Source of the DNA: Anaerolineae bacterium | GTDB taxonomy: Bacteria; Chloroflexota; Anaerolineae; Aggregatilineales; Phototrophicaceae | Direction: 5' to 3' | DNA length: 64,000 bases | NCBI GenBank assembly: GCA_019912965.1 | Contig: JAIOHM010000185.1 | Coordinates: 62,001-126,000, forward strand | Shown: positions 4,266 to 62,239 of the stretch, piece by piece | Layout of the letters: each line of letters begins with the position of its first letter | Position numbering within the stretch: position 1 is the stretch's first letter | Made by a program: the position numbers and the translations under genes | The notes under the pieces: model-generated | The model's input: the letters and a program-made list of their open reading frames with translations, nothing else | What the model was told of the DNA's origin: nothing | The model's database searches: none

Positions 4266-6269
4266 CTAGTCACCAGAAGGTTGCAGCGAACGTGTTACAG
4301 ATGCCCCATTGGTTGATGCTGGCGTTTCTTCCTCGCGGCGGAACTGGCTCATGTATAGATCGTAGTATGCACCCTTCAGTTCCAGCAAACTGTTGTGCGT
4401 GCCGCGTTCGACAATCTCCCCATCCTTGAGCACCAATACCTGATTGGCGTTGCGGATGGTACTGAGGCGATGCGCGATCACAAAGCTCGTGCGGCCTTCC
4501 AGCAGTTTTTCAAAGGATTTCTGGATGAGGCGTTCGGTACGGGTATCAACGCTAGAGGTGGCTTCATCCAAAATCAGGATTCGCGGACTCATCAACGCGA
4601 CACGCGCAATTGCGATCAACTGCCGCTGTCCCTGACTCAAGCCACTACCGCGTTCCCCCAAAACGGTCTGATAACCCTCAGGGAGACGTTCGATAAATTG
4701 GTCAGCTGATACCAACTTTGCCGCTTCGATAACTTCCTCGTCAGTTGCCTCCAGCCGCCCATAACGAATGTTGTTCATTACGGTGTCTGAAAACAGGAAG
4801 GTGTCCTGCAACACAATCCCAATCTGGCTGCGGAGACTGGCAGCAGTTACATCGCGGACATCGATACCGTCGATCTTGACCGCGCCATCGGTGACATCAT
4901 AAAAACGGGGCAGCAGATTGATGATGGTTGTTTTGCCCGCACCCGTTGGGCCAACGATAGCGATAGTTTCGCCCGGTTCAGCTGTCAGGCTGACATCCTT
5001 CAGCACCGGTTCTCCTGCCTTGTACTCTGCCCAAGCCTTTACGAACTCGACCTTACCCTGAATGACTGGCATTATGGTCGCGTTCGGCTTGTCAACAATA
5101 TCCGGTTTGGCATCCAGAAGGCTGAAAATGCGTTCACCACCCGCGATAGCACTTTGGATATTCGTCCACAGCACGGCAATCTGTTGAATGGGCATATTGA
5201 AATTCTGCACGTAACCCAAGAAAGCGAACACCGTACCGAGGGAAATCACGGTTGTGCCAAGCAGTGGTTCATTCCGCAGTACAGAAAGACCACCCACAAC
5301 CACTACAATTGCCAGTGCAACATAGCCTAAAGCTTCCAGCACCGGATTGAGTGCACTGGTGAAAGCAGCAGCCCGAACATTGGCATCGCGGTTAGCAGCA
5401 TTAGTACGGCGGAATTCCTCGATGTTTTCTTCTTCGCGGTTAAAAGCCTGCACCTCGCGCACACCAGCAAAACTTTCCTGCAAATTGGCGTTCACGCTAC
5501 CCATTTCTTCACGGCTTTTGCGGAAAGCTTTACGAGCCTGACCGGAGAAATAGGATGTTGCCAAGATCATGAAAGGTACGACAATCAGACTGAGCAGTGC
5601 ATAGGGTACATTTTCCTGAAGCATGTTGACCATCACCCAGATGATCAGGAGCATACCACTCAACACATTGACCAGAGCAAAACCCAAAGCCTGCTGAATG
5701 GTTTCCGAGTCGCTGGTGAAGCGACTCATAATGTCACCTGCTTCATTCTCGGCATAGTAGCCAAGCGATAGACGATGCACATGACGGAAAACATCTTTAC
5801 GAATATCACGCAGGGCATTTTGGCCAGCGTAGTTCATCACAAAGAACATGACACCACGCAGCAGCGACCCGACAACAAACAAGCCAAGCAGCAAGCCCAC
5901 CAAACCAAGCAAGCCAGCGATTTTCGCATTTCTGGCTGCATCCTGATCGGCCATGGCACCGTAATCGGTCGAGTCGTACCAGCAGGTGCGCGTTTGCACC
6001 TGTTCTGACCCGGCTTCACCCCCAAATTGGGATGACATCGAGGCAAACGGATTTTCCTCGAACAGGTAACAATCCACCGATTGACCAATCAACTTCGGCA
6101 CTTCGACCTGCGTCCAGGTGACAACCACCATCAAAATGGCCACTAGTACAAGCATAAACCAATGCTTGCGAAAGTAATCCCAGAAGCGTCGGAGTGTAGC
6201 CCCAACGTTTCTCGGCTTTATAACGTCACGTTCCATCAGACGGCGACCGCCGTCCAGTCCACCCATCAT
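4266..6269 (-). CDS. ABC exporter half-transporter, catalytically intact subunit
   Basis: This is a 667-residue membrane/ATPase half-transporter. About six membrane helices occupy residues 30-345 and the nucleotide-binding domain 385-640. It has Walker A (GPTGAGKTT), a signature altered to LSQGQ, and an intact Walker B (LILDEATSSVD) with the catalytic glutamate. An extracellular loop of about 65 residues with two cysteines lies between helices 1 and 2. It starts 9 bp after the stop of the neighbouring ABC gene. The altered signature fits the partner of a subunit with a degenerate Walker B, as in heterodimeric exporters of the BmrCD or TM287/288 kind. The substrate is unknown; the MarR gene and the divergent ligase cluster suggest either a drug or the cluster's own product. 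Confidence 0.9.
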   Translation of the reverse strand: MMGGLDGGRRLMERDVIKPRNVGATLRRFWDYFRKHWFMLVLVAILMVVVTWTQVEVPKLIGQSVDCYLFEENPFASMSSQFGGEAGSEQVQTRTCWYDSTDYGAMADQDAARNAKIAGLLGLVGLLLGLFVVGSLLRGVMFFVMNYAGQNALRDIRKDVFRHVHRLSLGYYAENEAGDIMSRFTSDSETIQQALGFALVNVLSGMLLIIWVMVNMLQENVPYALLSLIVVPFMILATSYFSGQARKAFRKSREEMGSVNANLQESFAGVREVQAFNREEENIEEFRRTNAANRDANVRAAAFTSALNPVLEALGYVALAIVVVVGGLSVLRNEPLLGTTVISLGTVFAFLGYVQNFNMPIQQIAVLWTNIQSAIAGGERIFSLLDAKPDIVDKPNATIMPVIQGKVEFVKAWAEYKAGEPVLKDVSLTAEPGETIAIVGPTGAGKTTIINLLPRFYDVTDGAVKIDGIDVRDVTAASLRSQIGIVLQDTFLFSDTVMNNIRYGRLEATDEEVIEAAKLVSADQFIERLPEGYQTVLGERGSGLSQGQRQLIAIARVALMSPRILILDEATSSVDTRTERLIQKSFEKLLEGRTSFVIAHRLSTIRNANQVLVLKDGEIVERGTHNSLLELKGAYYDLYMSQFRREEETPASTNGASVTRSLQPSGD

Positions 6270-6278
6270 AATTGGTTA

Positions 6279-8216
6279 CTATGCCTCCTGCATGGGCTGG
6301 GCTTCAGCCGCTTCATCAATTTCGACATCGCCAACAAGCTGCGAATGGTAAATTTCGGCGTAGATGGCGCTGGACTCCATCAGTTCTTCGTGCTTGCCAC
6401 GCGCCACGATCTGACCTTTTTCCAACACCAAAATCTGATCAGCATTCAACACTGTGCTGATACGCTGGGCAATCACAAAACTGGTACGTCCACGCATCAG
6501 GTTATCCAATGCCTTCTGAATGCGGTATTCGGTCATTAGATCAACGCTGCTGGTCGAGTCATCCAGAATGAGGAGGCGAGGATTGAGGAGCAACGCACGG
6601 GCAATTGCAATACGCTGTTTCTGACCACCTGAAAGGGTCGTGCCACGTTCGCCAACCGGTGTATCATAGCCCTCTGGGAAGGTTTCAATGAAATCATGAG
6701 CAGCAGCAGCCTTGGCTGCATTGATGACTTCTTCCATTGTGGCATCAGAGCGACCAAAGGCGATATTATCGCGGATGGTACCGCTGAACAGGTTGGTTTC
6801 CTGAAGCACGATACCAATCTGTGAACGCAAGCTATCCAGCGTCACATCACGCAGATCATGTCCATCAATCAAAACTGCGCCTTCGCTTACATCGTAGAAG
6901 CGCGGAATCAAATTGATGATGGTGGTCTTGCCGCTGCCAGTTGCACCGAGCAGTGCAATAGTCTGCCCAGACTCGGCGGTGAAGGTAACATTCTGCAAAA
7001 CAGGGGTATCACTACCGATGTAACGGAAAGTCACATCTTTGAATTCGACATGCCCCTGAATAGCAGGTAATGTAGCAGCATCTGGCTTATCAGATACATC
7101 GTTTTTAGCGTCCAAAATCTCAAAGATGCGGGTAGACGAAGCTGCTGCCTGCGCCATCAAGGAGATAATGAACCCTAACTGTGCCATCGGGAAAAAGATA
7201 TAGCCCAGATACAAGCTAAACTTCTGATACTCCCCCAACGCCAGCGAACCACCAAGGATTTGAACGCCACCGAAATACAGAATACCCGCCTGCCCCAACT
7301 GCGCGATCAAGAAAATGACCGGGAAGAGGAAGGCAAAGGTACGACTGACCTTTAAACTTTGTGCCAGCAGATTATCGGCGGCCTCGTCAAAGCGTTTTTG
7401 TTCATATGGTTCACGCACGAAGGCTTTGACAACCTTGATACCCGCCAGACTTTCCTGCAAAGTGGTATTCAGATCAGAAATCCGCTGCTGCACTTTGACG
7501 AACAGTGGTTGGCTGACCGCACCGAAGATAACGAACAGTACAAAAGCCAATGGCAGTACAGGCAGTACGACCAACGTCAAACGCCAGTTGGTCGCGAACA
7601 GAATAACCAACGTGAGGATGAGCAAAATGAACGATTGTGCCGCCAGAATTAAGCCCTGCGCGATGAACATTCGAACTTTTTCGACATCATCGGTCGCGCG
7701 GATCATGAGTTGCCCGGTTTGGTTCTGGTCGTGGTAAGTGAAAGAAAGCCGCTGAATCTTGGAAAAGATTTCATTGCGGAAGTCAAAGGCCACGCCCTGC
7801 GAGACTTTTTCCGACATATAGGCTTGCACGAATGAAAACAGGCCGCGCATAACCGCGAAAGCGACGATAAATAATGCCGCGCTAATGAGCAGCGTTTCGG
7901 CATTAGCCTGATCAGCCTGTAGTTGCTCAACTGTTTTTTCCAATTTCAAGGCATCCAACACATTTGGCAAAAAAGCCGTTGGAACATTGGTTAGCAGTGC
8001 ATTGGCTGTAACGCCGTTAGTCGCAGCGTCAATCATATTCTGCACCAATTGAGGTACAGCCAGTTGAGCGATAGTGGCGATGAAAAGCGCGCCATAAGCA
8101 ATCAGTGTTGGGCGGCGTTGTTTGCCAAGATAGCGAATCGCGCGGCCCAAACCGCCACCTGATGCCTGTGCGCCACCAGCGCGACGCCCTCGAGACTGTG
8201 ATGCTGTTGATTGCAC
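6279..8216 (-). CDS. ABC exporter half-transporter with degenerate Walker B
   Basis: This 645-residue half-transporter has six predicted membrane helices in residues 35-345, followed by a nucleotide-binding domain. Walker A (GATGSGKTT) and the signature (LSGGQKQR) are canonical, but Walker B reads LLILDDSTSSVD: aspartate replaces the catalytic glutamate. In known heterodimeric exporters this marks the subunit that forms the non-hydrolysing ATP site. The start is a GTG at 8216 preceded by AGGGAGA; no in-frame ATG lies close by. A basic, Gly/Ala-rich cytoplasmic N-terminus of about 30 residues precedes the first helix. The gene is second in the marR operon, 59 bp after marR. Confidence 0.9.
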   Translation of the reverse strand: MQSTASQSRGRRAGGAQASGGGLGRAIRYLGKQRRPTLIAYGALFIATIAQLAVPQLVQNMIDAATNGVTANALLTNVPTAFLPNVLDALKLEKTVEQLQADQANAETLLISAALFIVAFAVMRGLFSFVQAYMSEKVSQGVAFDFRNEIFSKIQRLSFTYHDQNQTGQLMIRATDDVEKVRMFIAQGLILAAQSFILLILTLVILFATNWRLTLVVLPVLPLAFVLFVIFGAVSQPLFVKVQQRISDLNTTLQESLAGIKVVKAFVREPYEQKRFDEAADNLLAQSLKVSRTFAFLFPVIFLIAQLGQAGILYFGGVQILGGSLALGEYQKFSLYLGYIFFPMAQLGFIISLMAQAAASSTRIFEILDAKNDVSDKPDAATLPAIQGHVEFKDVTFRYIGSDTPVLQNVTFTAESGQTIALLGATGSGKTTIINLIPRFYDVSEGAVLIDGHDLRDVTLDSLRSQIGIVLQETNLFSGTIRDNIAFGRSDATMEEVINAAKAAAAHDFIETFPEGYDTPVGERGTTLSGGQKQRIAIARALLLNPRLLILDDSTSSVDLMTEYRIQKALDNLMRGRTSFVIAQRISTVLNADQILVLEKGQIVARGKHEELMESSAIYAEIYHSQLVGDVEIDEAAEAQPMQEA

Positions 8217-8275
8217 GATAATTTGATCTCCCTCTCTTTGCTAGAACCTAAGTTAATAGGGGTAATGCATGGTTA

Positions 8276-8761
8276 TCATTCTGATGTACGAATGTTCGGA
8301 TTGTCACGTTTCACATTCAAAGCTCGTTCCAGCGCCTCGACAACCATCCGCTGTTCTTCTAGGGGCAGGCCTTCTAATAAAGTGGCAACAGCGCTGCACC
8401 GCGCCGTCCGGCTTTGGACTATAAGCTGACTTCCCTTTTCGCTCAAAGACAATCGCCATGAGCGCGCATCCACAGTATCACGCTGACGCTTGACCAATTG
8501 CATTCGTTCAAGCTGATTGATGGAGGTTGAAATAGCAGCCGGTGTCACTTCCAGTTTTTCTGCCAATTCTTTCTGTGGCATCCCCGGTTCATGATAGAGA
8601 ATCTGCATCGCACGCATCTGATTGAACTTTAGGTCTTTAAATAGTTCGTGACCGGGCGGCGGCTTATGCCTCCCTAACAGCTTGAACGACTCTTCAAACA
8701 CGCGCAAAAAACGCATAGCAAGTTCCTGTGTTTCCACAGAGTCACGGGAAACGGAGTCCAT
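8276..8761 (-). CDS. MarR family transcriptional regulator
   Basis: The 161-residue protein is a winged-helix regulator. The region KELAEKLEVTPAAISTSINQLERMQLVKRQRD is the recognition helix-turn-helix followed by the wing, with flanking helices that would form the dimer. I placed the start at the ATG at 8761, which has an AGGA element six bases upstream, rather than at a TTG 24 bases earlier. It is the first gene of the operon encoding the ABC exporter pair, a common layout in which the MarR protein represses its own operon until a ligand binds. A 32-bp near-palindrome upstream is the likely operator. The ligand cannot be predicted. Confidence 0.88.
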   Translation of the reverse strand: MDSVSRDSVETQELAMRFLRVFEESFKLLGRHKPPPGHELFKDLKFNQMRAMQILYHEPGMPQKELAEKLEVTPAAISTSINQLERMQLVKRQRDTVDARSWRLSLSEKGSQLIVQSRTARCSAVATLLEGLPLEEQRMVVEALERALNVKRDNPNIRTSE

Positions 8762-8808
8762 CTTGTATCCTGATTCAATTGGCAAAAGGATGAATTTTTG
8801 AGAGGAAT

Positions 8809-8840
8809 TAGTTAAATGATTTAATTAAATTGTTTAACTA
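8809..8840. promoter_or_regulatory. Probable MarR operator, 32-bp near-palindrome
   Basis: The half-site TAGTTAAATGATTTAA meets TTAAATTGTTTAACTA about a centre at 8824/8825. Fourteen of 16 pairs match, leaving two mismatches. It lies 48-79 bp upstream of the marR start, within the marR promoter region, and about 80 bp upstream of the divergent promoter for the ATP-grasp cluster. AT-rich palindromes of this kind are typical MarR dimer sites; binding is inferred. Confidence 0.65.
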
Positions 8841-8919
8841 GATTTGATGATAAGCGCAAAACTGAGGACTGTCAAGCCTAACTCCCCAAAGGTATAGGGA
8901 ACTAACTAAATGTCCAATT

Positions 8920-8946
8920 TTGACGAACACTCTGAGATTCTATAAT
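8920..8946 (+). promoter_or_regulatory. Sigma-70-type promoter of the ATP-grasp/peptidase cluster
   Basis: TTGACG (8920-8925) and a perfect TATAAT (8941-8946) are separated by 15 bp, slightly short. Transcription would begin near 8953, downstream of the TTG at 8948, which rules that codon out as the start and supports the ATG at 9017 with a leader of about 65 nt. Confidence 0.65.
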
Positions 8947-9016
8947 TTTGCCGTTCCTATCCTCACACGTTATACTCCCTATTCGTAATTCAACCACATC
9001 CCAACAGGATAGATTT

Positions 9017-10210
9017 ATGACTACCCTGCTCGCCATTTCCAGTTATTTCAAGGGTGAAGCATTTTTACAGCAGGCCAAACGTGAGGGCTGCCAGGTTCTT
9101 TTGCTTACTGAGGAAAAAATTGCCACGGAGAATTGGCCGCGTGAAAGCATTGATGAAGTATTTTTGATGCCTGATCTTTCTAAAACACAGGATGTCATTA
9201 ATGCTGTGAGTTATCTGTGCCGTTCCCAGAAAATTGACCAAATCATTGCACTGGATGAGTATGACATTGAGAATGTGGCTACATTACGTGAACATCTGCG
9301 CCTTCCCGGTATGGGGCAAAGCCACACGCGTTATTTCCGCGACAAACTGGCGATGCGTATGAAAGCAGATGAAAAAGGCATTCTTGTCCCCAGCTTCACT
9401 TCTGTATTCAACTATGATCGCCTGCGAGAATTCATGAGTCAGGTGTCGCCCCCCTGGGTGTTAAAACCTCGTACAGAAGCTGGAGCAATGGGCATCAAGA
9501 AGATTGAAGAATCCGAGCAGTTGTGGCGCTTATTCGATGAGTTGGGAGATCGGCAGTCGGGATTTTTACTGGAACAATTTGTTCCCGGTGATGTTTACCA
9601 TGTTGATTCTATCATCTGGAATAACACCATTCAGTTTGCAACCGTTCAAAAATATGGACAGCCCCCTATGACGGTCGCACACGGTGGTGGTGTTTTTACC
9701 AGCCGCACCCTACCGCCGGGCTCGGAAGACGCTGTTGCATTGAAGGCACTGAATGCCCATGTCATCGGCGCATTGGGAATGGAGCGTGGCGTTACCCATG
9801 CTGAATTCATCAAGGCCCACGCTGATGGGCAGTTATATTTTCTGGAAATTGCGGGTCGGGTTGGCGGGGCACATCTTTCTGATTTAATTGAAGCCTCTAC
9901 AGGAATTAACCCCTGGGCAGAGTGGGCACGCATTGAAACAGCGGTTGCCAAAGGCGAACAATATCAACTGCCTCCGATACAGCAGCGTTATGGTGGTTTG
10001 CTTGTCTCTTTAGCAAAGCAAGAACACCCGGATATGTCCGCGTATCAAGACCCGGAAATCGTCTGGCGCATGAACAAAAAAGATCACGCAGGATTGATTG
10101 TAGCCTCCGATAATCCGGCGCGTGTAGAAGAATTGCTCAACAGTTATGCAGAGCGATTCATGGTGGATTTTATGGCCTACGCACCACCGAAGGACAAGCC
10201 CACCCACTAG
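9017..10210 (+). CDS. ATP-grasp carboxylate-amine ligase, first of three in the cluster
   Basis: The 397-residue protein has a Rossmann-like N-terminal part (residues 1-90), then an ATP-grasp fold of the biotin carboxylase/CarB/amino-acid ligase type: PPWVLKPRTEAGAMGIKK (ATP lysine and Gly-rich loop), LLEQFVPGDVYHVDSI (hinge and nucleotide contacts), and HAEFIKA with FLEIAGRVGG (metal-binding Glu and Asn-like region). Such enzymes activate a carboxylate as acyl phosphate and join it to an amine. The start is the ATG at 9017, downstream of a TATAAT promoter. It is the lead gene of the cluster running to 14578. The substrates are unknown; the presence of two further ATP-grasp ligases suggests stepwise amide bonds in one product. 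Confidence 0.85.
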   Translation: MTTLLAISSYFKGEAFLQQAKREGCQVLLLTEEKIATENWPRESIDEVFLMPDLSKTQDVINAVSYLCRSQKIDQIIALDEYDIENVATLREHLRLPGMGQSHTRYFRDKLAMRMKADEKGILVPSFTSVFNYDRLREFMSQVSPPWVLKPRTEAGAMGIKKIEESEQLWRLFDELGDRQSGFLLEQFVPGDVYHVDSIIWNNTIQFATVQKYGQPPMTVAHGGGVFTSRTLPPGSEDAVALKALNAHVIGALGMERGVTHAEFIKAHADGQLYFLEIAGRVGGAHLSDLIEASTGINPWAEWARIETAVAKGEQYQLPPIQQRYGGLLVSLAKQEHPDMSAYQDPEIVWRMNKKDHAGLIVASDNPARVEELLNSYAERFMVDFMAYAPPKDKPTH

Positions 10211-10259
10211 ATATCTTCATGCACTAGAATCATCTATTTCATATACGCTATTCGGGAAA

Positions 10260-10282
10260 GACCAGACACACACCGTCTGGTC
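10260..10282 (+). other. Intergenic stem-loop upstream of the peptidase gene
   Basis: GACCAGAC (10260-10267) is perfectly complementary to GTCTGGTC (10275-10282) around a 7-nt loop. It lies in the 97-bp gap between the first ATP-grasp gene and the peptidase. No U tract follows, so it may tune read-through or mRNA stability rather than terminate. Confidence 0.45.
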
Positions 10283-10307
10283 ATTTACTTGCCTTACACT
10301 TCTGGAC

Positions 10308-11462
10308 ATGCCTGTGCCTATTTTCACATCCAATTACCCTCATTTTGCCCCCGGTGAACCGACTTTACTGAGTACACCTGAACGCACGGGCGCACTGCCG
10401 GAATATACCGGACGCGGCGTATCGATGGCTTTTATTGATGCGGGATTTTACCCACATCCTGATCTTGATGGCCGTATTCTGGTTCATGCAGATGCTTCCA
10501 CTAACCGGGTTGTTGAGCAAACCGCCGGATTTGACTGCGGTGATTTAAGCTGGCACGGACAAATGACCAGCGTTATTGCCTGTGGCAGCGGGCAAACTTC
10601 AAATAGCAAATACCGGGGAATTGCTTCCGAGGCAAAATTGGTACTGGTGAAAGTTAGCACCCCAAAAGGCCAGATCAAAGAAACCGATATTTTACGCGGG
10701 TTGCGTTGGGTAGCAGATACACACCGTCGTTTCAATGTTCGAATCGTCAATATCTCGGTTGGGGGCGACGATATTAGCAACGACCCTAATCATTTGCTTC
10801 ACAAAATCATCCGCAAGCTGACGAAGGCTGGCGTGGTAGTCATTGTAGCAGCAGGCAACCGCAGTGTTGCCCATTTGCTCCCACCAGCAAGTGCCGCCGA
10901 AGCGATTACTGTTGGCGGTTTAGATGACCTGAATACACTGGATAAAACCAAATGGCATTTGTATCATCACAATTATGGCTCGGTTTATGATGGCACAACC
11001 AAACCAGAACTGGTAGCCCCATCAGCCTGGATTGCCTCGCCTATAATGCCGGGTACAAGTATGGCGAGGGAAGCGCATTGGCTTGCCCCCCTTCTTCTAG
11101 ACTCGCCAGATGAAACCAGCATTCATAAAGTGCTTCAGCAAGGTTATGCAGATTTGGCACTCCCTCGAAAACTGATTGACTCCCCCAACGGACATCTCTA
11201 TACCATGCTTCAGGAACGCATCCATGCCCACAAATTGATTGATGCATATCACCAGCATGTGGATGGCACATCAGTATCTGCACCTATTGTGGCTTCGGTC
11301 GTGGCACAGATACTAGAAGCGAATCCTCGTTTGACGCCACTGCAAATCCGCGCTATTCTGACGGCTACTGCCAATCCGCTGCCAAACACCCCTTCTGAAA
11401 AGCAAGGGGCAGGCATTCTGAATGCAAGCGAAGCAGTGAAGGCAGCCATCAACTTACGCTGA
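10308..11462 (+). CDS. Subtilisin-like (S8) serine peptidase without signal peptide
   Basis: This 384-residue protein has a full subtilase triad: Asp44 in AFIDAGF, His83 in SWHGQMTSV, and Ser322 in VDGTSVSAP, plus the oxyanion-hole Asn184 in AAGN. The start is the ATG at 10308; the longer frame reads back into the ATP-grasp gene and has no gene-like content. No signal peptide or propeptide is visible, so it should act in the cytoplasm. Between KPELVAPS and GTSVSAP, normally about 20 residues, there is a stretch of roughly 80 residues that looks like an inserted subdomain. Its place between ligase genes suggests it trims or matures a peptide substrate, or has been adapted to transfer chemistry; both are inference. 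Confidence 0.88.
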   Translation: MPVPIFTSNYPHFAPGEPTLLSTPERTGALPEYTGRGVSMAFIDAGFYPHPDLDGRILVHADASTNRVVEQTAGFDCGDLSWHGQMTSVIACGSGQTSNSKYRGIASEAKLVLVKVSTPKGQIKETDILRGLRWVADTHRRFNVRIVNISVGGDDISNDPNHLLHKIIRKLTKAGVVVIVAAGNRSVAHLLPPASAAEAITVGGLDDLNTLDKTKWHLYHHNYGSVYDGTTKPELVAPSAWIASPIMPGTSMAREAHWLAPLLLDSPDETSIHKVLQQGYADLALPRKLIDSPNGHLYTMLQERIHAHKLIDAYHQHVDGTSVSAPIVASVVAQILEANPRLTPLQIRAILTATANPLPNTPSEKQGAGILNASEAVKAAINLR

Positions 11463-11481
11463 CAGAAAAAGTGACAACCTT

Positions 11482-12201
11482 ATGAATCGTGAATATCATC
11501 AATGGTGGAGTCCATCGCTCAATCGCCATATGGAATTGCTGGTATTTGGACATGCAGGCGCACGGGCGTTAGTATTTCCCACATCCAAAGGCAAGTTTTA
11601 TGAATGGGAAGACCGGGGTATGCCCGGAGCGCTCCACGACCATCTAGAACGCGGATGGTTACAAATGTTTTGTGTGGACAGTGTAGACGCCGAAAGCTGG
11701 TACAACTACGGCATCCATCCCAACGGACGGGCATATCGCCATGCCCAGTATGATGGTTATCTTTACAACGAAGTCCTGCCATTTACGCAAAGCAAAAATG
11801 GCAACCCATTTCTCATGACGCTGGGAGCCAGCTTTGGAGCCTACCATGCTATGACCTTTGGGCTGAAACACCCGGATAAAGTTGACCGCATTCTGGCACT
11901 CAGCGGTTTATACGATATTCGCACGTTTACAGGCGGCTATGGGGATAGCCATGTTTACCTCAACAATCCGACACAGTTTATCGCCGGGGAACATGATCCC
12001 CATCGAATCAACCAACTCCAACACCTTGACATCATCATGGCAACGGGACGCGACGACCGCCTGATGCAATCCGCAAGAGAATTTTCCGGCCTATTGTGGA
12101 GCAAGGGCATCGGCAATGCACTGCGCGAATGGGATGGCTGGTCACACGATTGGCCGTACTGGCAGCAAATGGTGCGACATTACATCAGTGGGCATGATTA
12201 A
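11482..12201 (+). CDS. Alpha/beta-hydrolase esterase of the COG4947 type
   Basis: The 239-residue protein begins at an ATG 19 bp after the peptidase stop. The nucleophile elbow is LGASFGAYHA (Ser117), and an aspartate (ATGRDDR) and a histidine (GWSHDWPYW) near the C-terminus would complete the triad. The N-terminal segment REYHQWWSPSLNRHMELLVFGHAG is the hallmark I associate with the COG4947 esterase family, which is often found beside ATP-grasp genes. No signal peptide is visible. In this cluster it could hydrolyse an ester or thioester intermediate, or release a product. The substrate is unknown. Confidence 0.8.
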   Translation: MNREYHQWWSPSLNRHMELLVFGHAGARALVFPTSKGKFYEWEDRGMPGALHDHLERGWLQMFCVDSVDAESWYNYGIHPNGRAYRHAQYDGYLYNEVLPFTQSKNGNPFLMTLGASFGAYHAMTFGLKHPDKVDRILALSGLYDIRTFTGGYGDSHVYLNNPTQFIAGEHDPHRINQLQHLDIIMATGRDDRLMQSAREFSGLLWSKGIGNALREWDGWSHDWPYWQQMVRHYISGHD

Positions 12202-12226
12202 GTAGCTTTCATCTGGTATGCATGGT

Positions 12227-12232
12227 TATAAT
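12227..12232 (+). promoter_or_regulatory. Possible internal promoter (-10 only)
   Basis: A perfect TATAAT lies in the 62-bp gap before the second ATP-grasp gene, but no convincing -35 element is found 15-19 bp upstream. It could give the last two genes extra transcription. Confidence 0.3.
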
Positions 12233-12263
12233 GCCAAATTAATTTTAATTACTTCGGAGCAAG

Positions 12264-13226
12264 ATGATGGCCTCTGCAAAATCAAATGAACCGCTGCGGG
12301 TTGGGCTATTCGTCGGCAGAGAATGGTCATGGCCACCTGCCTTCATTGAAGAAGTCAACCGCCGTAATGATGGCGTCATAGCCGAATATGTTCAGGTAGG
12401 GGGCACAATGATGGACGAGCCATGCCCCTATCGCGTGATTGTTGACCGCATCTCGCACGAAGTCCCCTACTATCGCTCCTATCTGAAAAATGCAGCACTA
12501 CAGGGCGTTAAAGTCGTCAATGATCCGTTTATGTGGACAGCAGACGATAAGTTCTTCGGAGCATCATTAGCCAACAAATTGGGTGTTGTTTCACCCAAAA
12601 CGGTGGTGCTGCCCAATAAGGATTATGTTCCGGGGATTGTCCACAGTGAAAGCCTGCGTAATCTGAAGTACCCAATGGACTGGAACGCGGTGGTTGAAGC
12701 AGTTGGTGGGACGCCCTGTGTATTGAAGGACGCTCACGGTGGGGGCTGGAAAGAAGTTTACATCGTTCACTCGGTTTCGGAATTGATCTGGCGCTACAAC
12801 CAGAGTGGATTACTGACCATGATCCTTCAGGAATTCATTCAGTGGGATAATTATGCCCGCTGCATGTGCCTCGGTCAGGAAGAAATCTATGTGATGAAAT
12901 ATGATCCGTCCGAACGTAAATATCATGATGAACATGATTTCTCACCGGAGCTTTATGAGCGCATTGTCCGCGATGCCAAAACGCTAGTGCAGGGATTTGG
13001 GTACGACATGAACACGGTCGAATTCGCCATTCGCAACGGTGTTCCCTATGCGATTGATTTTATGAATCCAGCACCCGATATGGATGTGAATTCGCTGGGT
13101 CGCAAACACTTTGACTGGATGGTGACGCATATGGCTGATATGTGCATCAAAATGGCGAAGGGCAAAACAGGAACGCGCGACAGCTATGAGTGGGGCAAAC
13201 TGGCGAAGCGCGCGGGAACCAAGTAA
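12264..13226 (+). CDS. ATP-grasp ligase (RimK-like), second of three in the cluster
   Basis: The 320-residue protein has a short N-terminal alpha/beta part (RVGLFVGREWSWPP) and a RimK/glutathione-synthetase-like ATP-grasp region: GTPCVLKDAHGGGWKEV carries the ATP-binding lysine and Gly-rich loop, LQEFIQWDNYARCMCLG the hinge, and NTVEFAIRNGVPYAIDFMNPAPD the metal-binding Glu and Asn. It starts at tandem ATGs (12264) after a GGAG element, and its stop is only 2 bp before the circularly permuted ligase, so the two proteins are probably made together. It should form an amide bond from a carboxylate and an amine; the substrates are not known. Confidence 0.85.
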   Translation: MMASAKSNEPLRVGLFVGREWSWPPAFIEEVNRRNDGVIAEYVQVGGTMMDEPCPYRVIVDRISHEVPYYRSYLKNAALQGVKVVNDPFMWTADDKFFGASLANKLGVVSPKTVVLPNKDYVPGIVHSESLRNLKYPMDWNAVVEAVGGTPCVLKDAHGGGWKEVYIVHSVSELIWRYNQSGLLTMILQEFIQWDNYARCMCLGQEEIYVMKYDPSERKYHDEHDFSPELYERIVRDAKTLVQGFGYDMNTVEFAIRNGVPYAIDFMNPAPDMDVNSLGRKHFDWMVTHMADMCIKMAKGKTGTRDSYEWGKLAKRAGTK

Positions 13227-13228
13227 CC

Positions 13229-14578
13229 ATGCCAAAGGAAGCGATTGACCGCTACCACGATTTGTTGAATGACCAGGTTGCAGCCGATACCAGTGCCGAG
13301 TTATATGAAAAACTGAAACCGGCTGGATTGTATTTTGGGGATCGCCCCATATGTACTGTTATCCGTCCTCATTTTTATCTACTGGAAGACTGGCAATACG
13401 TCAAACGCGAAACCGAAATTTTGTTGGGTGCATTCGCCCGCGCACATGCTGCCTGTCTGATTCATGATGACCTGCGGGCACAGCTTGACCTCGAACCCTA
13501 CGAAGAAGCCTTCTTCAATCTGGATATTGGCACAGCCGTTCCCTGGACAACTTCACGACTGGATTCGTTTTTTATCGCGGCTGAACGTGAACTGCATTTC
13601 GTGGAATACAACGCAGAAACACCCGCCGGGATGGGTTACGAAGATGTACTTTCCGAACTCTTCATGACCTTAGAGCCGATGAAGCAGTTCCAAGAGCATT
13701 ATGCTATTCAAAGTATGCCGATGATGAGCAAACTGCTGGCGGTACTCATGCGCGGCTATAAGGATTGGGGTGGTCATGGGATGCCACAGGTTGCAATTGT
13801 GGACTGGGGCCACGTCCCAACGCTGAACGAGCATGAAATTATCCGCAGATCGTTTGAGCGGCATGGCATTCGGGCAGTTCTGGCTGACCCGCGCGCGCTA
13901 GAATACCGCAGTGGGCATCTTTGGGCGGGCAATTTCCGTGTGGATATGATCTACAAGCGGGTCCTGTGCAGCGAACTGGTGCGGCAAATGGGCATGGATA
14001 ACGCGATTGTGCGTGCCATCAAGGATAAAGCAGTGTTCATGAGCAATTCGTTCAGTGCGAAGTTACTGGCGAAAAAAGCCAGTCTGGCACTGATGAGCGA
14101 TGAAGCAAATGGACACCTTTTTGATGACCAGCAGCGGGCGGCTATTTACGCGCATATCCCGTGGACACGACGAGTCTCTGAACGCAAAACACAGTATCAG
14201 GATCAGGAAGTTGATCTCATTCCGTTTATCACGGAACATCGTGACCGCTTTGTGCTGAAGCCGAATGATGAATACGGCGGCAAAGGCGTAGTCATTGGTT
14301 GGGAAGCATCGATTGAAGAGTGGAACGAAACACTGAGATCAGCGCTCACCGATTCGTATGTGGTGCAGGAAAAGGTGAATGTGGTTTACAAGGATTTTCC
14401 GGCGTACATTGACGGCAAGCTGGACATCAGCCCGCGCTTTGTAGATGCGAACCCGTATGTTTTCGATGGTCACAACGTTCATGGGTGTTTGACGCGGCTG
14501 TCATCGGTAGCATTGCTAAACGTGACGGCTGGCGGTGGTTCGGTTGTGCCGACATATTTGTTACAAAGAAAGCAGTGA
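13229..14578 (+). CDS. Circularly permuted ATP-grasp ligase
   Basis: This 449-residue protein belongs to the circularly permuted ATP-grasp group (CP_ATPgrasp type). FVEYNAETPAGMGYED near residue 130 is the segment normally found at the C-terminal end of a standard ATP-grasp, while FVLKPNDEYGGKGVVIG near residue 345 holds the ATP lysine and Gly-rich loop, with VVQEKV as hinge. The order is therefore inverted compared with the other two ligases. The start is the ATG at 13229, 2 bp after the previous stop. It is the last gene of the cluster before stem-loops and a terminator. Known neighbourhoods of this family are predicted to make peptide-like or amide-linked metabolites. Confidence 0.85.
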   Translation: MPKEAIDRYHDLLNDQVAADTSAELYEKLKPAGLYFGDRPICTVIRPHFYLLEDWQYVKRETEILLGAFARAHAACLIHDDLRAQLDLEPYEEAFFNLDIGTAVPWTTSRLDSFFIAAERELHFVEYNAETPAGMGYEDVLSELFMTLEPMKQFQEHYAIQSMPMMSKLLAVLMRGYKDWGGHGMPQVAIVDWGHVPTLNEHEIIRRSFERHGIRAVLADPRALEYRSGHLWAGNFRVDMIYKRVLCSELVRQMGMDNAIVRAIKDKAVFMSNSFSAKLLAKKASLALMSDEANGHLFDDQQRAAIYAHIPWTRRVSERKTQYQDQEVDLIPFITEHRDRFVLKPNDEYGGKGVVIGWEASIEEWNETLRSALTDSYVVQEKVNVVYKDFPAYIDGKLDISPRFVDANPYVFDGHNVHGCLTRLSSVALLNVTAGGGSVVPTYLLQRKQ

Positions 14579-14584
14579 TTTGTT

Positions 14585-14645
14585 ACCTGATAAACAGAGG
14601 GTATCAGGTGATTATTACGTGAATTACGAACCATTCCTGAATGGT
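14585..14645 (+). other. Two tandem stem-loops after the ligase cluster
   Basis: The first pairs ACCTGATA (14585-14592) with TATCAGGT (14602-14609). The second pairs ACCATTC (14630-14636) with GAATGGT (14639-14645) and is followed by GTTTT, so it may be a weak terminator itself. Both precede the main terminator at 14666. Confidence 0.5.
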
Positions 14646-14665
14646 GTTTTAACCGAAAACAGATG

Positions 14666-14703
14666 CAAGTCGGGGCGAAAGCGTATTCGCCCCGACTTGT
14701 TTA
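14666..14703. terminator. Strong bidirectional terminator
   Basis: A perfect 14-bp stem (CAAGTCGGGGCGAA at 14666-14679 with its complement at 14686-14699) and a 6-nt loop is followed by TTGTTTAA on the plus strand and CTGTTTTC on the minus strand. It ends the five-gene ATP-grasp cluster. The stop codon of the convergent permease gene overlaps its edge, so it probably ends that operon as well. Confidence 0.9.
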
Positions 14704-15579
14704 ATCGCGGGTGCTGTTGGTCAGGCGATAGGCGATTAAGATGGGGATGAAGGTGGCGGCGATGACAATCAACGCGGCGACGTTGGTTACAGGACGGTCA
14801 CGCGGTCGCAGCAATTGGCTATAAATCCAGATCGGAAGGGTTTGCTGCTGACCGGCTGTAAAAGTGGTCACAATGACTTCATCAAACGACAGCGCAAAAG
14901 CCAGCATTCCGCCCGCCAGCAGCGCAGTAGCGATATTGGGCAGGATGATGTAGCGGAAAGTCTGGAAAGTGGATGCGCCCAAATCCATTGAGGCTTCGAT
15001 CTGCGAATGAGCCGTGCGGCGCAGACGGGCGATGACATTGTTGTAGACCGTCACGATGCAGAAAGTGGCATGACCGATGACGATTGTCCAGAAGCTAAAG
15101 CTCAATCCAGTCAGACTCATAGCCGAACGCAGCGCGATACCCGTGACAATACCGGGCAAGGCAATCGGTAAGATGACCAGCAGCGAAACGGCCTCCCGAC
15201 CAAAAAACTGACTATGGTAAATGGCCGCCGCCAACAGCGTTCCCAAGATCAAGGCAATCACTGTCGCAATAGCCGCCACCGTGACCGACAATCCTATCGC
15301 CGACCAGAAATCCGGACGGTTGGGCTGATAGACACAATTTTCCTGCGGTGCAGCGCCTTCCTGCTCAACGGTGGTGCATTCGGTTTCGCCACCCAACAAC
15401 TGACCAAACCACTGGGTCGTTAATCCCGGCGGCGGAAAGGTGAAGGATGCTTCTTCGGTGGTGAAGGCATAGAGCAGAATAATGAAAATGGGGAAGTGCA
15501 GGAACAACAAAGCGCATCCGGTCGCACCCTTCAAGCCCCACGAAGCGCGGGGTGCGCTATTCAGTGTATTAGAGCGCAT
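14701..15579 (-). CDS. Polyamine-type ABC transporter permease (PotC/YdcV-like)
   Basis: The 292-residue inner-membrane protein has about six hydrophobic helices and the permease EAA loop ([21 protein letters not shown]), which docks on the ATPase. A periplasmic loop after helix 1, about residues 55-95, carries two cysteines. It overlaps the upstream permease gene by 11 bp, so the two should be translationally coupled. The whole cassette (binding protein, aldehyde dehydrogenase, ATPase, two permeases) has the gene content of the E. coli ydcSTUV-patD operon, which handles putrescine. Substrate assignment is by context. Confidence 0.85.
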
Positions 15580-16504
15580 CGAACGCCCCCGTTCTTCTGG
15601 CTAACAGCAGATATACCGCCATGATCGCCATTGGCACTACGGTAAAGGCAGCAGCTAAGGGGATATTGCCAGCCGTACCCTGCTGGGCAAAGACCACCTG
15701 CCCGATGAAAAAACTGGAATTGCCAATCACGCTCGGAATGATGTAATCGCCCATCGTCAGCGAGAAAGTGAAGATAGAGCCAGCAACTACGCCGGGAAAG
15801 GCCAGTGGCAAAATCACATGGCGGAAGGTGTAATTAGGCGGCGCGCCCAAGTCACCGGAGGCTTCGATCAAGGATTTGGGCACCCGTTCCAAAGCGGCGT
15901 TGATGGGCAAAATCATGTAGGGCAGCCAAATGTAGACGAACACCAAGAACATACCGATGAAGGAAAATGACAGCGAAGAACCGCCCAAACCCGGTATATC
16001 CAATATACTTTCCAGCACGCCCCCTAAACCAAACAGGTTAAAGAACCAGGTGATGATACCTTCCTGCGCCAGAATGATCTTCCATGTGTAGACACGCACC
16101 AGATAGCTTGACCACAAAGGCAACAGAACGGCAAGGTAGAGTATGCCCTTCACCCGATAGGAGGCATAACGCGCCATGTAGTAAGCCAACGGGAAGGCAA
16201 TCAATGCACAGGTGATGGTAACAACAGCCGCCATGACGACCGTGCGGAAGATGATGTCCAGATTGGAAGGGGTGAATAACTGCTGATAAGTCTCCAGCCC
16301 GAACTGCCGGACGATGCGCCCAGTGAAGCCATCCAAATGGAAAAAACTTTGGATGAGCAGCGTCAAAAGCGAACCGAGGTAAAAGGTACCCAACCAGAAT
16401 AACGGCAGCGCCAGCGTCAACAGCAGGGAAAGGGTTGGCCGCCGATAGAAGAAGGTCGAAATCTGGCGGAAAAGCGAGGGCGGGGCGGGTGATATAGAAG
16501 CCAT
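15569..16504 (-). CDS. Polyamine-type ABC transporter permease (PotB/YdcU-like)
   Basis: The 311-residue permease has about six membrane helices and the EAA motif [21 protein letters not shown] near residue 205. The start is the ATG at 16504, four bases after the ATPase stop, with a strong GGGGGAGGGG ribosome-binding site inside the end of the ATPase gene; the longer open frame would overlap the ATPase by about 65 bp. It should pair with the PotC-like permease to form the membrane channel. Confidence 0.87.
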
Positions 16505-16508
16505 AGGC

Positions 16509-17558
16509 TTACCCCTCCCCCACCAATGGGCGGCTGTGATTCTTATCCCACACCAGTTTGACACGGTTGCCACGCGCGGCTAACACATCCATCGAAGTGG
16601 TTTGGAGATTCTGCTGAATCACGGTCAGGTCACCACCCGCATCCAGCTCAACCAGATAACGGGTATTCATGCCCAAATAAACTACATCACGGATCGTGCC
16701 ATCAACGCCATAAGCCGTATCCGACACAGGCGCATCCAACGCCATCATATGGATTTTTTCCGGACGAACCGAGAAAGTTTGCGCCGAACCCGTAATGGAT
16801 TGCGCCGTCGCACCACTGATGAGATTAGATGTGCCGACAAAGCCAGCGACAAACCCAGTCGTCGGACGTTCGTAGACTTCGGCAGGTGTTCCGATTTGCT
16901 CGATCCGACCACGATTGAAAACGGCTAGACGGTCACTCATGGTCAGGGCTTCTTCCTGATCATGAGTGACAAAGATGAAGGTGATACCCACACGCTTTTG
17001 GATGGCTTTGAGTTCGATCTGCATCTGCTGACGCAGTTTGAGATCGAGCGCACCGAGGGGTTCATCCAACAGCAGGACACGGGGATGATTCACCAACGCA
17101 CGGGCTAAAGCGACACGCTGCCGCTGCCCACCGGACAACTGCGACGGTTTGCGGTTTTCCATGTTCGGCAACTGTACCATCGCCAGCATTTCGGACACGC
17201 GGCGTTCGCGTTCAGCCTTCGGCACTTTTTTTATCATCAGACCATAGGCGACATTCTGCCCAACCGTCATATGCGGGAACAGCGCGTAATCCTGAAAAAC
17301 GGTGTTTACATCACGCTCGTAAGGCGGCACACCCGCAACTTCCTCACCATGCAGCAAGATGCTGCCAGAGGTGGGCTGTTCAAAACCCGCAATCAGACGT
17401 AAGCAGGTGGTTTTGCCCGACCCAGAAGGGCCGAGCAAGGAGAAAAATTCGCCGTCGTAGATGTCCAAGTCAAGATGGTCAACCGCCTTTACATCGCCAA
17501 AGAAGCGGCAGACATCCATCATGCGAACGGCCACAGAGGACTTGTTATCAGCGCCCAT
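16509..17558 (-). CDS. Polyamine-type ABC transporter ATPase (PotA/YdcT-like)
   Basis: The 349-residue protein has Walker [10 protein letters not shown], signature [15 protein letters not shown], Walker [14 protein letters not shown] and the switch histidine in FVTHDQEEA, all canonical. A C-terminal TOBE-like regulatory domain ([20 protein letters not shown]) is typical of PotA/MalK-class importers. The ATG at 17558 lies 2 bp after the aldehyde dehydrogenase stop. It powers uptake through the two permeases encoded downstream. Confidence 0.92.
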
Positions 17559-17560
17559 AA

Positions 17561-19003
17561 TCAGCCGTTCTTAATCATGACATGCTTGGTAATTTTGTAA
17601 TCTGAAACTGCTTCCGCCGAGAGGTCTTTGCCGAAACCGGACTGCTTAAAACCACCGTGCGGTGTTTCGGAAGTCAGCGGAATATGATCGTTAATCCAGA
17701 CTGTGCCAAATTCCAACTGGGACGACACCCGCATGGCGCGACCAATATCGCGCGTCCAGACCGAAGCAGCAAGGCCATAATTCACATCGTTGGCGAGGCG
17801 AACGGCTTCTTCTTCGCTCTTGAAGGTGTTGATGGTCAGAACCGGGCCAAAAATTTCGCTCTGGATAACCTCGGCTTTCTGGTCGGCATCGACAATCACG
17901 GTCGGCTCGAAATAATAGCCTTTGTCCCGGCCAGAAGGCACAATGCCGCCCGTCAAAATGGTCGCGCCGGAAGCTTTGGCACGGTCAACAAAACCCTGTA
18001 CCCGTTCACGCTGGACACCAGAAATCAGCGGCCCCATCTGTACCCCATCTTCATAGGGCGAACCGACTTTAACAGCGCGCATGGCCTCGACAATGGCTTC
18101 GGTAGCATGGTTGGCGCGGCTGGATTCGACATAAACACGGGTGGCAGCGGTGCAATCCTGCCCGGTATTGACGGTACTGGTAAAAGCAGCAACGCCAGCG
18201 AGAGCTTCGACATCCATATCGTCGAAAACCAAGAAAGGCGCTTTGCCACCGAGTTCGAGATGGACACGCTTGAGGGTATCGGCGGCAGTCCGCATGATCT
18301 TTTTGCCTGTGCCGGTGGAACCTGTCAGGCTGACGAGACGGACATCGGGATGTTCTACTAACGCCTGTCCGGTTTCATTGCCACCCGTCACAATATTGAC
18401 CACGCCATCGGGGATACCCGCTTCGGCAAATAATTCAGCTAACAGGAGCGTGGTCAGGGGTGTTCCGGGGGCAGGCTTGAGCACAATGGTGCAACCCGCA
18501 GCCAACGCCGGGCCAATCTTCCAAATCGCCATCAACAGCGGATAGTTCCAAGGGGTAATCTGTCCGACCACGCCAACGGGTTCGCGGCGATACATGGAGG
18601 TATAACCTTTGGCGTATTCACCCGCTGTATAACCATGTGTATCCCGCGCGGCGGAAGCAAAAAAGCGCAGGTTATCGACACTAAAGGGCAGGTCACCGCC
18701 GAGGCTGACAAACTGGTAAGGCTTGCCTGTGTTTTCCGATTCGAGGCGGGCGAATTCTTCTTTGCGGGCGTCCAGCAAATCAGCTAATTTCCAGATTGCC
18801 AGCGAACGCTCACCGGGGGTCAGCTTCGACCAGCGTCCATCGTAAAAAGCCTGATGCGCCGCGCCAACTGCCCGATTAACATCGGCACGGCTGGCATCCA
18901 CCACTTCCGCAATTTTTTCACCCGTGGCAGGGTTTTCAATGGGCATCCGCTGACCGCCGTCACTGTCTACCCATTGGCCGTCAATCCACAGCTTATAATC
19001 CAT
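17561..19003 (-). CDS. Aldehyde dehydrogenase, likely gamma-aminobutyraldehyde dehydrogenase (PatD-like)
   Basis: The 480-residue NAD-dependent aldehyde dehydrogenase has [13 protein letters not shown] in the cofactor region, [10 protein letters not shown] as the NAD-binding turn, the general-base glutamate in HLELGGKAP, and the catalytic cysteine in NTGQDCTAA. The last motif and the overall sequence resemble E. coli PatD (YdcW), which oxidises 4-aminobutanal from putrescine to GABA. The position inside a polyamine transporter operon supports this. The start is the ATG at 19003 with GAGGA seven bases upstream, not the earlier TTG. Betaine-aldehyde dehydrogenase activity is an alternative. No putrescine transaminase gene is in the window. 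Confidence 0.85.
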
Positions 19004-19077
19004 GTTGTGTCCTCGCAAAAAGGGAAATTATTCAATTATTCAGAAAGCGCGGATCGATGCTATTTAACAATTTAGTC

Positions 19078-46547: not shown

Positions 46548-46816
46548 CTAAAAACAAAAAGCCCTTTCATCCTATACACAAGGACGAAAGGGCTAGCTTT
46601 CGCGGTACCACCTTGATTCCCCAAACCAAATATTGGCATGGGACACTCTGGCGCTTTAACGGGCGTACCCGGCCATGCTTACTAAGCGTTCAGCATAGCA
46701 ACTCGCGGGCGACCTTCAGTGAACGTTGGCGAGTGGGCTTCCAGCCGATGACCCACACTCTCTGGCGCAGGGAGCTCACCTACTCCTCCCGGTCGAAGTC
46801 GTTACAATTCGGTTTG
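46548..46816 (-). ncRNA. T-box leader (riboswitch) of valS
   Basis: Reading the minus strand, the leader has a GGGAGGAGTA segment (46790-46781, AGTA box), CCAGAGAGTG (46765-46756), a distal loop GGCTGGAAGCC (46745-46735), the T-box proper AAGGTGGTACCGCG (46614-46601), and a terminator with a 14-bp stem (46594-46581 with 46573-46560, one mismatch) followed by U-rich sequence to 46550. A GUC valine codon at 46713-46711, 51 nt after the CAGAGAG element and preceded by GAAG, is the best specifier candidate. Uncharged tRNA-Val should stabilise the antiterminator and turn on valS. This element fills most of the 408-bp gap before the next gene. Confidence 0.93.
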
Positions 46817-61726: not shown

Positions 61727-62239
61727 CTAGCTCAGAAAATACTCCATCCCACAAAAGCGGCAGGTCACCACACCTTTACCCACCAGTTTGATTTCGCCGC
61801 CACAGTTTTTGCATTTATCCAGTTCTCGCAGTTGTTTGGCATCAGATGAATAAATCACGCCTTTTTCCCAGTTTACGTATCCGCTAAAAACCTGCAACCC
61901 AACCAGTTGATTCAGCAGATTTTTTACGTTATCCACGCTGGTTTTCATCTCCAGCGCCAGATCAGCCACTGCCACCTGCCCCCGGCTTTTCACAATATCC
62001 AGCAGTTGGCGCTGCTGCTGCATACTGGATTCTTCCACCACTTCTTTGCTGCCAATCACGTACATATAGATACCGCCTCCGACCAGCAGCGCCACCGGGA
62101 TAAAAGCGATAACTGCGCCGATCAATGCACCGCCCGCGCCAATTTGCTGCACTTGCAGCGCCAGCCATAACCCGGCAATCACCGCGATACCGAACCCCAC
62201 CACGATCAGAATAACGCCAACCAGCCGCCCTGTATTCAT
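61727..62239 (-). CDS. Membrane protein with winged-helix-like and zinc-ribbon domains
   Basis: The 170-residue protein has two N-terminal membrane helices (about residues 5-28 and 35-62), a winged-helix-like region (LLDIVKSRGQVAVADLALEMKTSVDNVKNLLNQLVGL), and a C-terminal zinc ribbon with cysteine pairs CKNC and CRFC. The combination recalls YdjG-like proteins of the PspA/YdjGHI module. It may act as a cytoplasmic docking platform at the membrane rather than a DNA-binding regulator. The gene is 86 bp downstream of the DUF2207 gene. Confidence 0.75.
   Translation of the reverse strand: MNTGRLVGVILIVVGFGIAVIAGLWLALQVQQIGAGGALIGAVIAFIPVALLVGGGIYMYVIGSKEVVEESSMQQQRQLLDIVKSRGQVAVADLALEMKTSVDNVKNLLNQLVGLQVFSGYVNWEKGVIYSSDAKQLRELDKCKNCGGEIKLVGKGVVTCRFCGMEYFLS

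Follow-up and report, generated by a model that had tools for sequence, protein, structure and literature searches.

A candidate multi-ligase amide pathway of Chloroflexota and its variant at an Anaerolineae locus

Five genes in a row

The window analyzed here is a stretch of 64 000 nucleotides from an Anaerolineae bacterium, positions 62001–126000 of its contig in a host assembly of 7.76 Mb. It contains five intact genes, here named A to E, that all run on the (+) strand: an ATP-grasp ligase (A, 9017..10210), a subtilase (B, 10308..11462), an esterase (C, 11482..12201), a second ATP-grasp ligase (D, 12264..13226) and a circularly permuted ATP-grasp enzyme (E, 13229..14578). D and E are the core of an enzyme set that recurs across the Chloroflexota. 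The explanation that we favor, and regard as fairly probable, is that the locus represents one lineage's version of a biosynthetic module of the Chloroflexota, whose product would be a small peptide-like or amide metabolite assembled independently of the ribosome and of a nonribosomal peptide synthetase (NRPS).

The gaps between the genes are 97 (A–B), 19 (B–C), 62 (C–D) and 2 bp (D–E). A preliminary description of this DNA had given five same-strand genes with D and E 2 bp apart, and the open reading frames (ORFs) lie where it had placed them. Comparison with two relatives (L053 and L055) yields pN/pS values of 0.10–0.27 for A to E, with synonymous sites near saturation, and therefore we take these to be genuine genes under purifying selection. 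Downstream of E a hairpin at 14666–14699 (−29.2 kcal/mol, z −5.8 relative to shuffled sequence) separates E from a convergent operon. This is probably the terminator of the cluster, and its stability bears out the strong terminator described earlier. The promoter of the same description did not hold up; the site at 8948–8976 is one of 11 promoter-like sites in the interval 8000–16000, where 10.5 are expected, and thus it is unsupported beyond chance.

Pfam agrees with the broad classes that had been assigned to A, B, C and E, while D can be called RimK-like only by its fold and a low-scoring model match. Among NCBIfam matches at E ≤ 1, not one of the five proteins reaches a model's cut-off. 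The residues given below as invariant are those of alignments built from a hand-picked part of the loci, with catalytic roles taken from the families. D (320 amino acids) matches no Pfam family, and its residues K155, E190, E253 and N268 are invariant in 16 aligned rows. E (449 amino acids) matches CP_ATPgrasp_2 (PF14403) marginally, at 32.7 against a cut-off of 32, and its homologue in genome G170 scores 46.2. R110, D112, E126, N128 and K344 of E are invariant in 19 aligned rows.

The ligase encoded by A (397 amino acids) matches the Pfam family ATP-grasp_4 (34.6 bits, cut-off 27), and K150, E186, E277 and R281 are invariant in 10 aligned rows. Its nearest relatives of solved structure are the L-amino-acid ligases 4wd3 (E 1.2e-15) and 3vot (E 2e-9). 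A falls far below the NCBIfam cut-offs for ligases of this kind, both BacD (22.9 against 850) and the dapdiamide A synthase DdaF (20.9 against 840).

Protein B (384 amino acids) is an S8 peptidase (Peptidase_S8, 124.4 against a cut-off of 21.8) with the catalytic residues D44, H83, N184 and S322 invariant in 12 aligned rows. Its S8 domain begins at residue 35 and no pro-region or signal is visible in the sequence; the enzyme is predicted to be cytoplasmic. It scores below the models for the PatA-type protease of ribosomally synthesized and post-translationally modified peptides (RiPPs) (TIGR03895, 42.4 against 421) and for mycosin (TIGR03921, 95.4 against 278.75). In the PADLOC defense models the only matches are of B to subtilase and IetS; A, C, D and E have none at E ≤ 0.001. 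With no PADLOC model for the ligases, an anti-phage defense system was rejected. At two related loci the subtilase has a C-terminal domain like CBM48/AMPK1_CBM, identified by Pfam in L104 (4629–6317) and by alignment in L116, and that of L104 has N-terminal CxxC motifs too. A peptidase bearing a glycogen-binding-like module is unusual.

Protein C (239 amino acids) is an alpha/beta hydrolase in which S117, D192 and H222 are invariant in 14 aligned rows. The broad Pfam family Esterase (PF00756, 32.8 against 22) is the only one over its cut-off, and there is no match to an NCBIfam S-formylglutathione hydrolase at E ≤ 1.

Conservation of D and E and the GCS2 partner

Related loci were sought with D as the anchor, and the best 80 of at least 539 confirmed relatives were compared. 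Genes in the relatives were called as stop-to-stop ORFs, with a greedy choice where gene orders are given. Many of the loci lie on short contigs, so that counts within 6 kb of D are minima. Most are labeled Chloroflexi, Anaerolineae or related metagenome-assembled genomes (MAGs); three are labeled otherwise (L056 Bacteroidetes, L079 Pleurocapsa and L132 Proteobacteria) and may be misnamed MAGs.

Within 6 kb downstream of D and on its strand, E is found in 77 of the 80 loci, and in 75 it starts no more than 300 bp from D. C is found on the strand of D within this distance in 60 loci, and in all 60 it lies upstream. The corresponding count is 42 for B and 23 for A, with A on the opposite strand in a further five. 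A gene for a carboxylate-amine ligase of the GCS2 family lies near D on its strand in 15 loci, and a Peptidase_C26 gene in seven. The association persists with distance: the 34 of these loci that have diverged most, in which D is 65–72% identical, include 33 with E and 25 with C. A further 34 loci, picked by hand from other, more distant Chloroflexota (two of them from one genome), comprise 24 with E, 17 with C and 23 with GCS2. C-D-E-GCS2 is a common gene order, as is B-C-D-E-GCS2-A, found in L104, L107, L116 and L195; in L170 and L171 both E and GCS2 precede D. Thus the conserved unit is D–E, often with C and, outside the window's family, with GCS2 in the majority of genomes that have D, while A and B are lineage-specific. 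The five genes had been presented as a single set, and as such they are not conserved; a search for shared synteny, suggested at the same time, was borne out within the Chloroflexota.

Some loci depart from these arrangements. In L073, L079, L081, L082 and L083 a Peptidase_C26 gene (gamma-glutamyl hydrolase-like) lies near B, and the 6 kb around D contain neither A nor GCS2. A distant cluster in L183, L184 and L186 comprises a divergent D (stop-to-stop ORFs of 426–606 amino acids), GCS2, three A-like ATP-grasps and an esterase, and L183 has an enterochelin-esterase-like gene as well. L188 holds a second, diverged D paralogue of genome G196 (273 bits) in an 18.8-kb stretch that lacks E, C and GCS2.

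How far does the association extend beyond neighborhood? We examined an evenly sampled set of 301 Chloroflexota genomes, requested at 85% completeness or more, with the lists of genomes bearing each enzyme compiled by hand. Strong matches to D are present in 72 of these, strong matches to E in 69 and an orthologue of GCS2 in 65, and all three enzymes occur together in 62 of the 72 D-bearing genomes. The three span 19 family groups together, and D and E co-occur over 20. Fisher's test gives p = 2e-55 for D and E, 1e-49 for D and GCS2 and 4e-55 for E and GCS2, values that ignore shared ancestry. The thresholds were chosen after the scores had been viewed. They exclude eight of 80 genomes from the D count (G107, G179, G208, G211, G223, G245, G345 and G353) 41 of 110 genomes for E (below 190 bits) and, among the matches listed, 55 of 120 for GCS2 (below 460 bits); G215 was retained as two pieces of D. 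In G170, a single contig of 5 258 541 bp, D and E are adjacent, and GCS2 lies 4.74 Mb away in contig coordinates, or ∼0.5 Mb if the molecule is circular. Thus the partnership of D and E with GCS2 is not merely one of neighborhood. This tight co-occurrence defines an uncharacterized set of enzymes, and since it is conserved over 19 family groups it suggests that the product of D, E and GCS2 is a generally useful metabolite and not a strain-specific one.

That A to E are chance neighbors with separate housekeeping roles is exceedingly improbable. Which of A, B, C and GCS2 accompany D does differ from lineage to lineage, in line with such a reading, but the close spacing of D and E in 75 of the 80 loci and their co-occurrence over 20 family groups speak against it. 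For D and E chance is strongly disfavored; B and the ABC transporter pair described below may be such neighbors.

The window's genus has a variant of the module. No GCS2 gene turned up in the genome of the window, either in protein searches or in Pfam searches in which the positive controls were detected. Taking this genome with 60 relatives, D is present in 33 of 61 and A in 27, of which 26 also have D. Among the 33 D-bearing genomes A is present in 26, GCS2 in seven and both in four (G043, G049, G054 and G059), with A sought at E ≤ 1e-60 and GCS2 at 1e-3. A is therefore associated with D, yet it is no strict replacement for GCS2, because both or neither occur in some genomes. We rejected simple replacement as a general rule: L104, L107, L116, L127 and L195 carry both genes, and at these thresholds neither was detected in G031.

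Ligase chemistry and candidate products

Enzymes of the ATP-grasp and GCS2 families convert a carboxylate to an acyl phosphate, which is then coupled to an amine. The folds and conserved residues of the cluster enzymes point to the same chemistry here, in which each ligase (A, D and E, and GCS2 in many other lineages) would use ATP to form an acyl phosphate for coupling to an amine. D may add a residue in the fashion of RimK, LysX or Ddl, and E may cap or lengthen the product by coupling it to an amino acid or an amine. Outside the window's family GCS2 accompanies D in the majority of genomes, where it would form another amide bond, perhaps the first; in the window's genus A perhaps supplies a starting dipeptide. 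The most economical scheme would have D and E build the product in series, fed by GCS2 or A. The hydrolases C and B could serve in trimming, de-esterifying or recycling the product or its precursor. Of the two roles suggested earlier for the cluster, a small amide-linked metabolite made by several ligases is the best-supported reading, while a peptide matured by the subtilase is unsupported.

The AlphaFold model of D (pLDDT 86.3) resembles Ddl, ArgX/LysX and RimK, the last with a query-normalized TM-score (TMq) of 0.67 (7qys_B), and graspetide ligases are also among its fold matches. In contrast to RimK itself, D scores only 26.4 against the cut-off of 143.4 for the NCBIfam rimK_fam model (TIGR00768). 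Because other chains outscore RimK by sequence, the RimK-like label depends on the fold together with this weak match. A search of plasmids with D gave no match.

These folds bring in the possibility that the ligases add residues to a ribosomal peptide or protein, or cross-link it, in the manner of RimK or the graspetide enzymes, and that subtilase B matures it, and the full catalytic set of B would fit with this. We consider it very unlikely. All small ORFs in the gaps between 8200 and 15000, 21 in number (nested starts counted separately, ORFs lying mostly inside genes dropped), were compared with 12 related loci and none was matched at E < 0.01; the rest of the genome was not searched for a precursor. 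The earlier remark that no precursor peptide lies inside the cluster therefore stands, and maturation of such a peptide by the subtilase gains no support. Moreover 38 of the 80 loci have no B in the 6 kb around D, and D is far below the rimK_fam cut-off. Enzymes of the GCS2 and E types are known mainly from small molecules.

The model of E (pLDDT 88.2) was searched against solved folds with Foldseek. The top matches are the glutathione and homoglutathione synthetases of human, soybean, potato and yeast (TMq up to 0.74, for 3kal_B; 0.69 for 2hgs) together with 3n6x, a putative glutathionylspermidine synthase; these are followed by GspS, Cp1B, YgiC/YjfC and trypanothione synthetase. By sequence, the profile of E matches three PDB sequences at E ≤ 10, among which there is no glutathione synthetase, and 3n6x is the only one at E < 0.1. 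The EYNAETP stretch of E, of the form EYNA(D/E)TP, can be aligned with YjfC, at a non-significant E of 1.4.

One product that these folds could indicate is a gamma-glutamyl low-molecular-weight thiol, glutathione-like, which would be the thiol reported from Chloroflexus and would be made by other Chloroflexota as well. GCS2 would join glutamate and cysteine, E would act on this dipeptide like a glutathione synthetase, D would add a further residue and C would cleave S-acyl adducts; in the window's genus the L-amino-acid-ligase-like A would take the first step in place of GCS2. In favor of such a pathway, an enzyme of glutathione-synthetase fold with a partner of the GCS2 family is the arrangement to be expected of it. 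BshC (PF10079) and GSH-S_N (PF02951) were each found in 0/301 Chloroflexota genomes with the controls detected, and no genome has MshC over its cut-off. MshC matches below the cut-off occur in 296 of the 301, and likewise in all control genomes except one, and are probably the related cysteinyl-tRNA synthetase. Bacillithiol was rejected as the Chloroflexota thiol on the absence of PF10079. A commentary states that glutathione is absent in the anaerobes surveyed and that several, including Chloroflexus aurantiacus, contain novel thiols (PMC6336425).

Yet several observations run counter to a thiol. The two GCS2 proteins tested are nearest YbdK; they pass only PRK13515, a carboxylate-amine ligase model (513.7 and 510.6 against 371), and the YbdK family TIGR02050, and lie below every glutamate-cysteine ligase cut-off among the models run. 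E differs from the eukaryotic-type synthetases in sequence as noted above, and its EYNAETP stretch aligns with YjfC, if not significantly. No GCS2 was detected in genomes of the window's genus, D is present in just 72 of the 301 genomes, and no thiol-specific gene is a regular neighbor among the families annotated. The negatives for glutathione enzymes cover GSH-S_N only, eukaryotic-type and fused GshF-type synthetases not having been searched for. In Hiras et al. 2018 (PMC6282198) there is no mention of Chloroflexus or Chloroflexi. On this evidence we judge the thiol distinctly unlikely; if it were correct, an open question on redox chemistry in the Chloroflexota would be settled.

A conjugate of a peptide with a polyamine, with E acting like a glutathionylspermidine or peptidylpolyamine synthetase, is also unlikely. 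It would account for the presence of GspS, YgiC and YjfC among the folds of E and for the sequence match to 3n6x, and an operon for an ABC importer and an aldehyde dehydrogenase lies downstream of E in the window. The permeases of this importer, presumably specific for polyamines, adjoin the cluster in only four of 114 loci, however. Furthermore E, in which Pfam finds ATP-grasp matches only, does not have the amidase domain that is fused in GspS, and GspS, YgiC and YjfC rank below the glutathione synthetases in the fold search. YgiC and YjfC are termed peptidylpolyamine synthetases in PMC12568646.

Cp1B provides a functional parallel for a small-molecule role of E. As described in PMC12568646, this enzyme of E-64 biosynthesis in fungi is a demonstrated pseudodipeptide ligase that acts before a second amide ligase, and its R-x-D and E-x-N motifs are conserved. 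E shares the glutathione-synthetase-like fold of Cp1B (9cjn, TMq 0.67) and both motifs, and by analogy R110/D112 and E126/N128 would be the catalytic Arg/Asp and Glu/Asn and K344 the ATP-binding lysine; the two proteins were compared without superposition. As proposed for E, Cp1B and Cp2B are partnered by another amide ligase within a cluster for a small molecule. They differ in that they have no significant sequence similarity to E (9cjn, E 0.68), and that the partner ligase belongs to the ANL family; the passages on their cluster name neither an esterase nor a subtilase gene.

The surroundings of distant homologues of E are metabolite-like. On the pSRC2 plasmid of Selenomonas ruminantium (L199) the gene stands in a row with a gene of the glutamate-cysteine-ligase family (GCS2-type) and a MATE exporter, possibly an independent cluster for a secreted metabolite. 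On a Pantoea plasmid its companions are further ATP-grasps and an MFS transporter, and in Streptomyces it lies near another ATP-grasp and a racemase. Iyer et al. 2009 reportedly surveyed amidoligase operons in which several ATP-grasps are linked with COOH-NH2 ligases, and the present set is like these in its multiple ATP-grasps. Such linkage is noted as an earlier observation in PMC4431377. A search of titles and the starts of abstracts found no publication on this gene set; most of the subscription literature lay outside it, and an earlier description is possible, for example by Iyer et al. 2009.

A number of observations weigh against an amide metabolite made by this module. In the sequence profile of D, chains of pyruvate and biotin carboxylases and of Ddl outscore RimK, and D could act on a protein instead. 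E is lacking in 10 and C in 17 of the 34 loci of the distant set, and within 6 kb of D there is no C in 20, no B in 38 and no A on either strand in 52 of the 80 loci. Searches for GCS2 in 17 genomes from the window's genus, where A and subtilase B are present instead, found it in none, and four of the 33 D-bearing genomes (G013, G031, G036 and G058) showed neither A nor GCS2; the assemblies of G013 and G036 are fragmented. The ABC transporter genes that adjoin the cluster are restricted to loci near the genus, plus L086.

Flanking genes

These transporter genes lie at 4266..8785 on the (−) strand, divergent from A, where a MarR regulator is encoded together with two ABC half-transporters. They are a possible regulator and exporter, and the half-transporters may export the product, but their membership of the cluster is uncertain. 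Homologues of the pair are present in 10 of the 114 loci, those of L086 being merely 33–42% identical. A pair of ABC genes stands immediately upstream of A, on its strand, in L061 and L086.

On the other side of the cluster, the convergent operon at 14701–19018 (−) encodes the ABC importer, with two permeases and an ATPase that has a TOBE domain, and the aldehyde dehydrogenase. It was rejected as part of the pathway on the rarity of its permeases beside the cluster.

Elsewhere in the window a T-box leader (46577–46805, (−) strand, 116 bits) lies directly upstream of an ORF of 872 amino acids (43920–46538), which reads as a valyl-tRNA synthetase.

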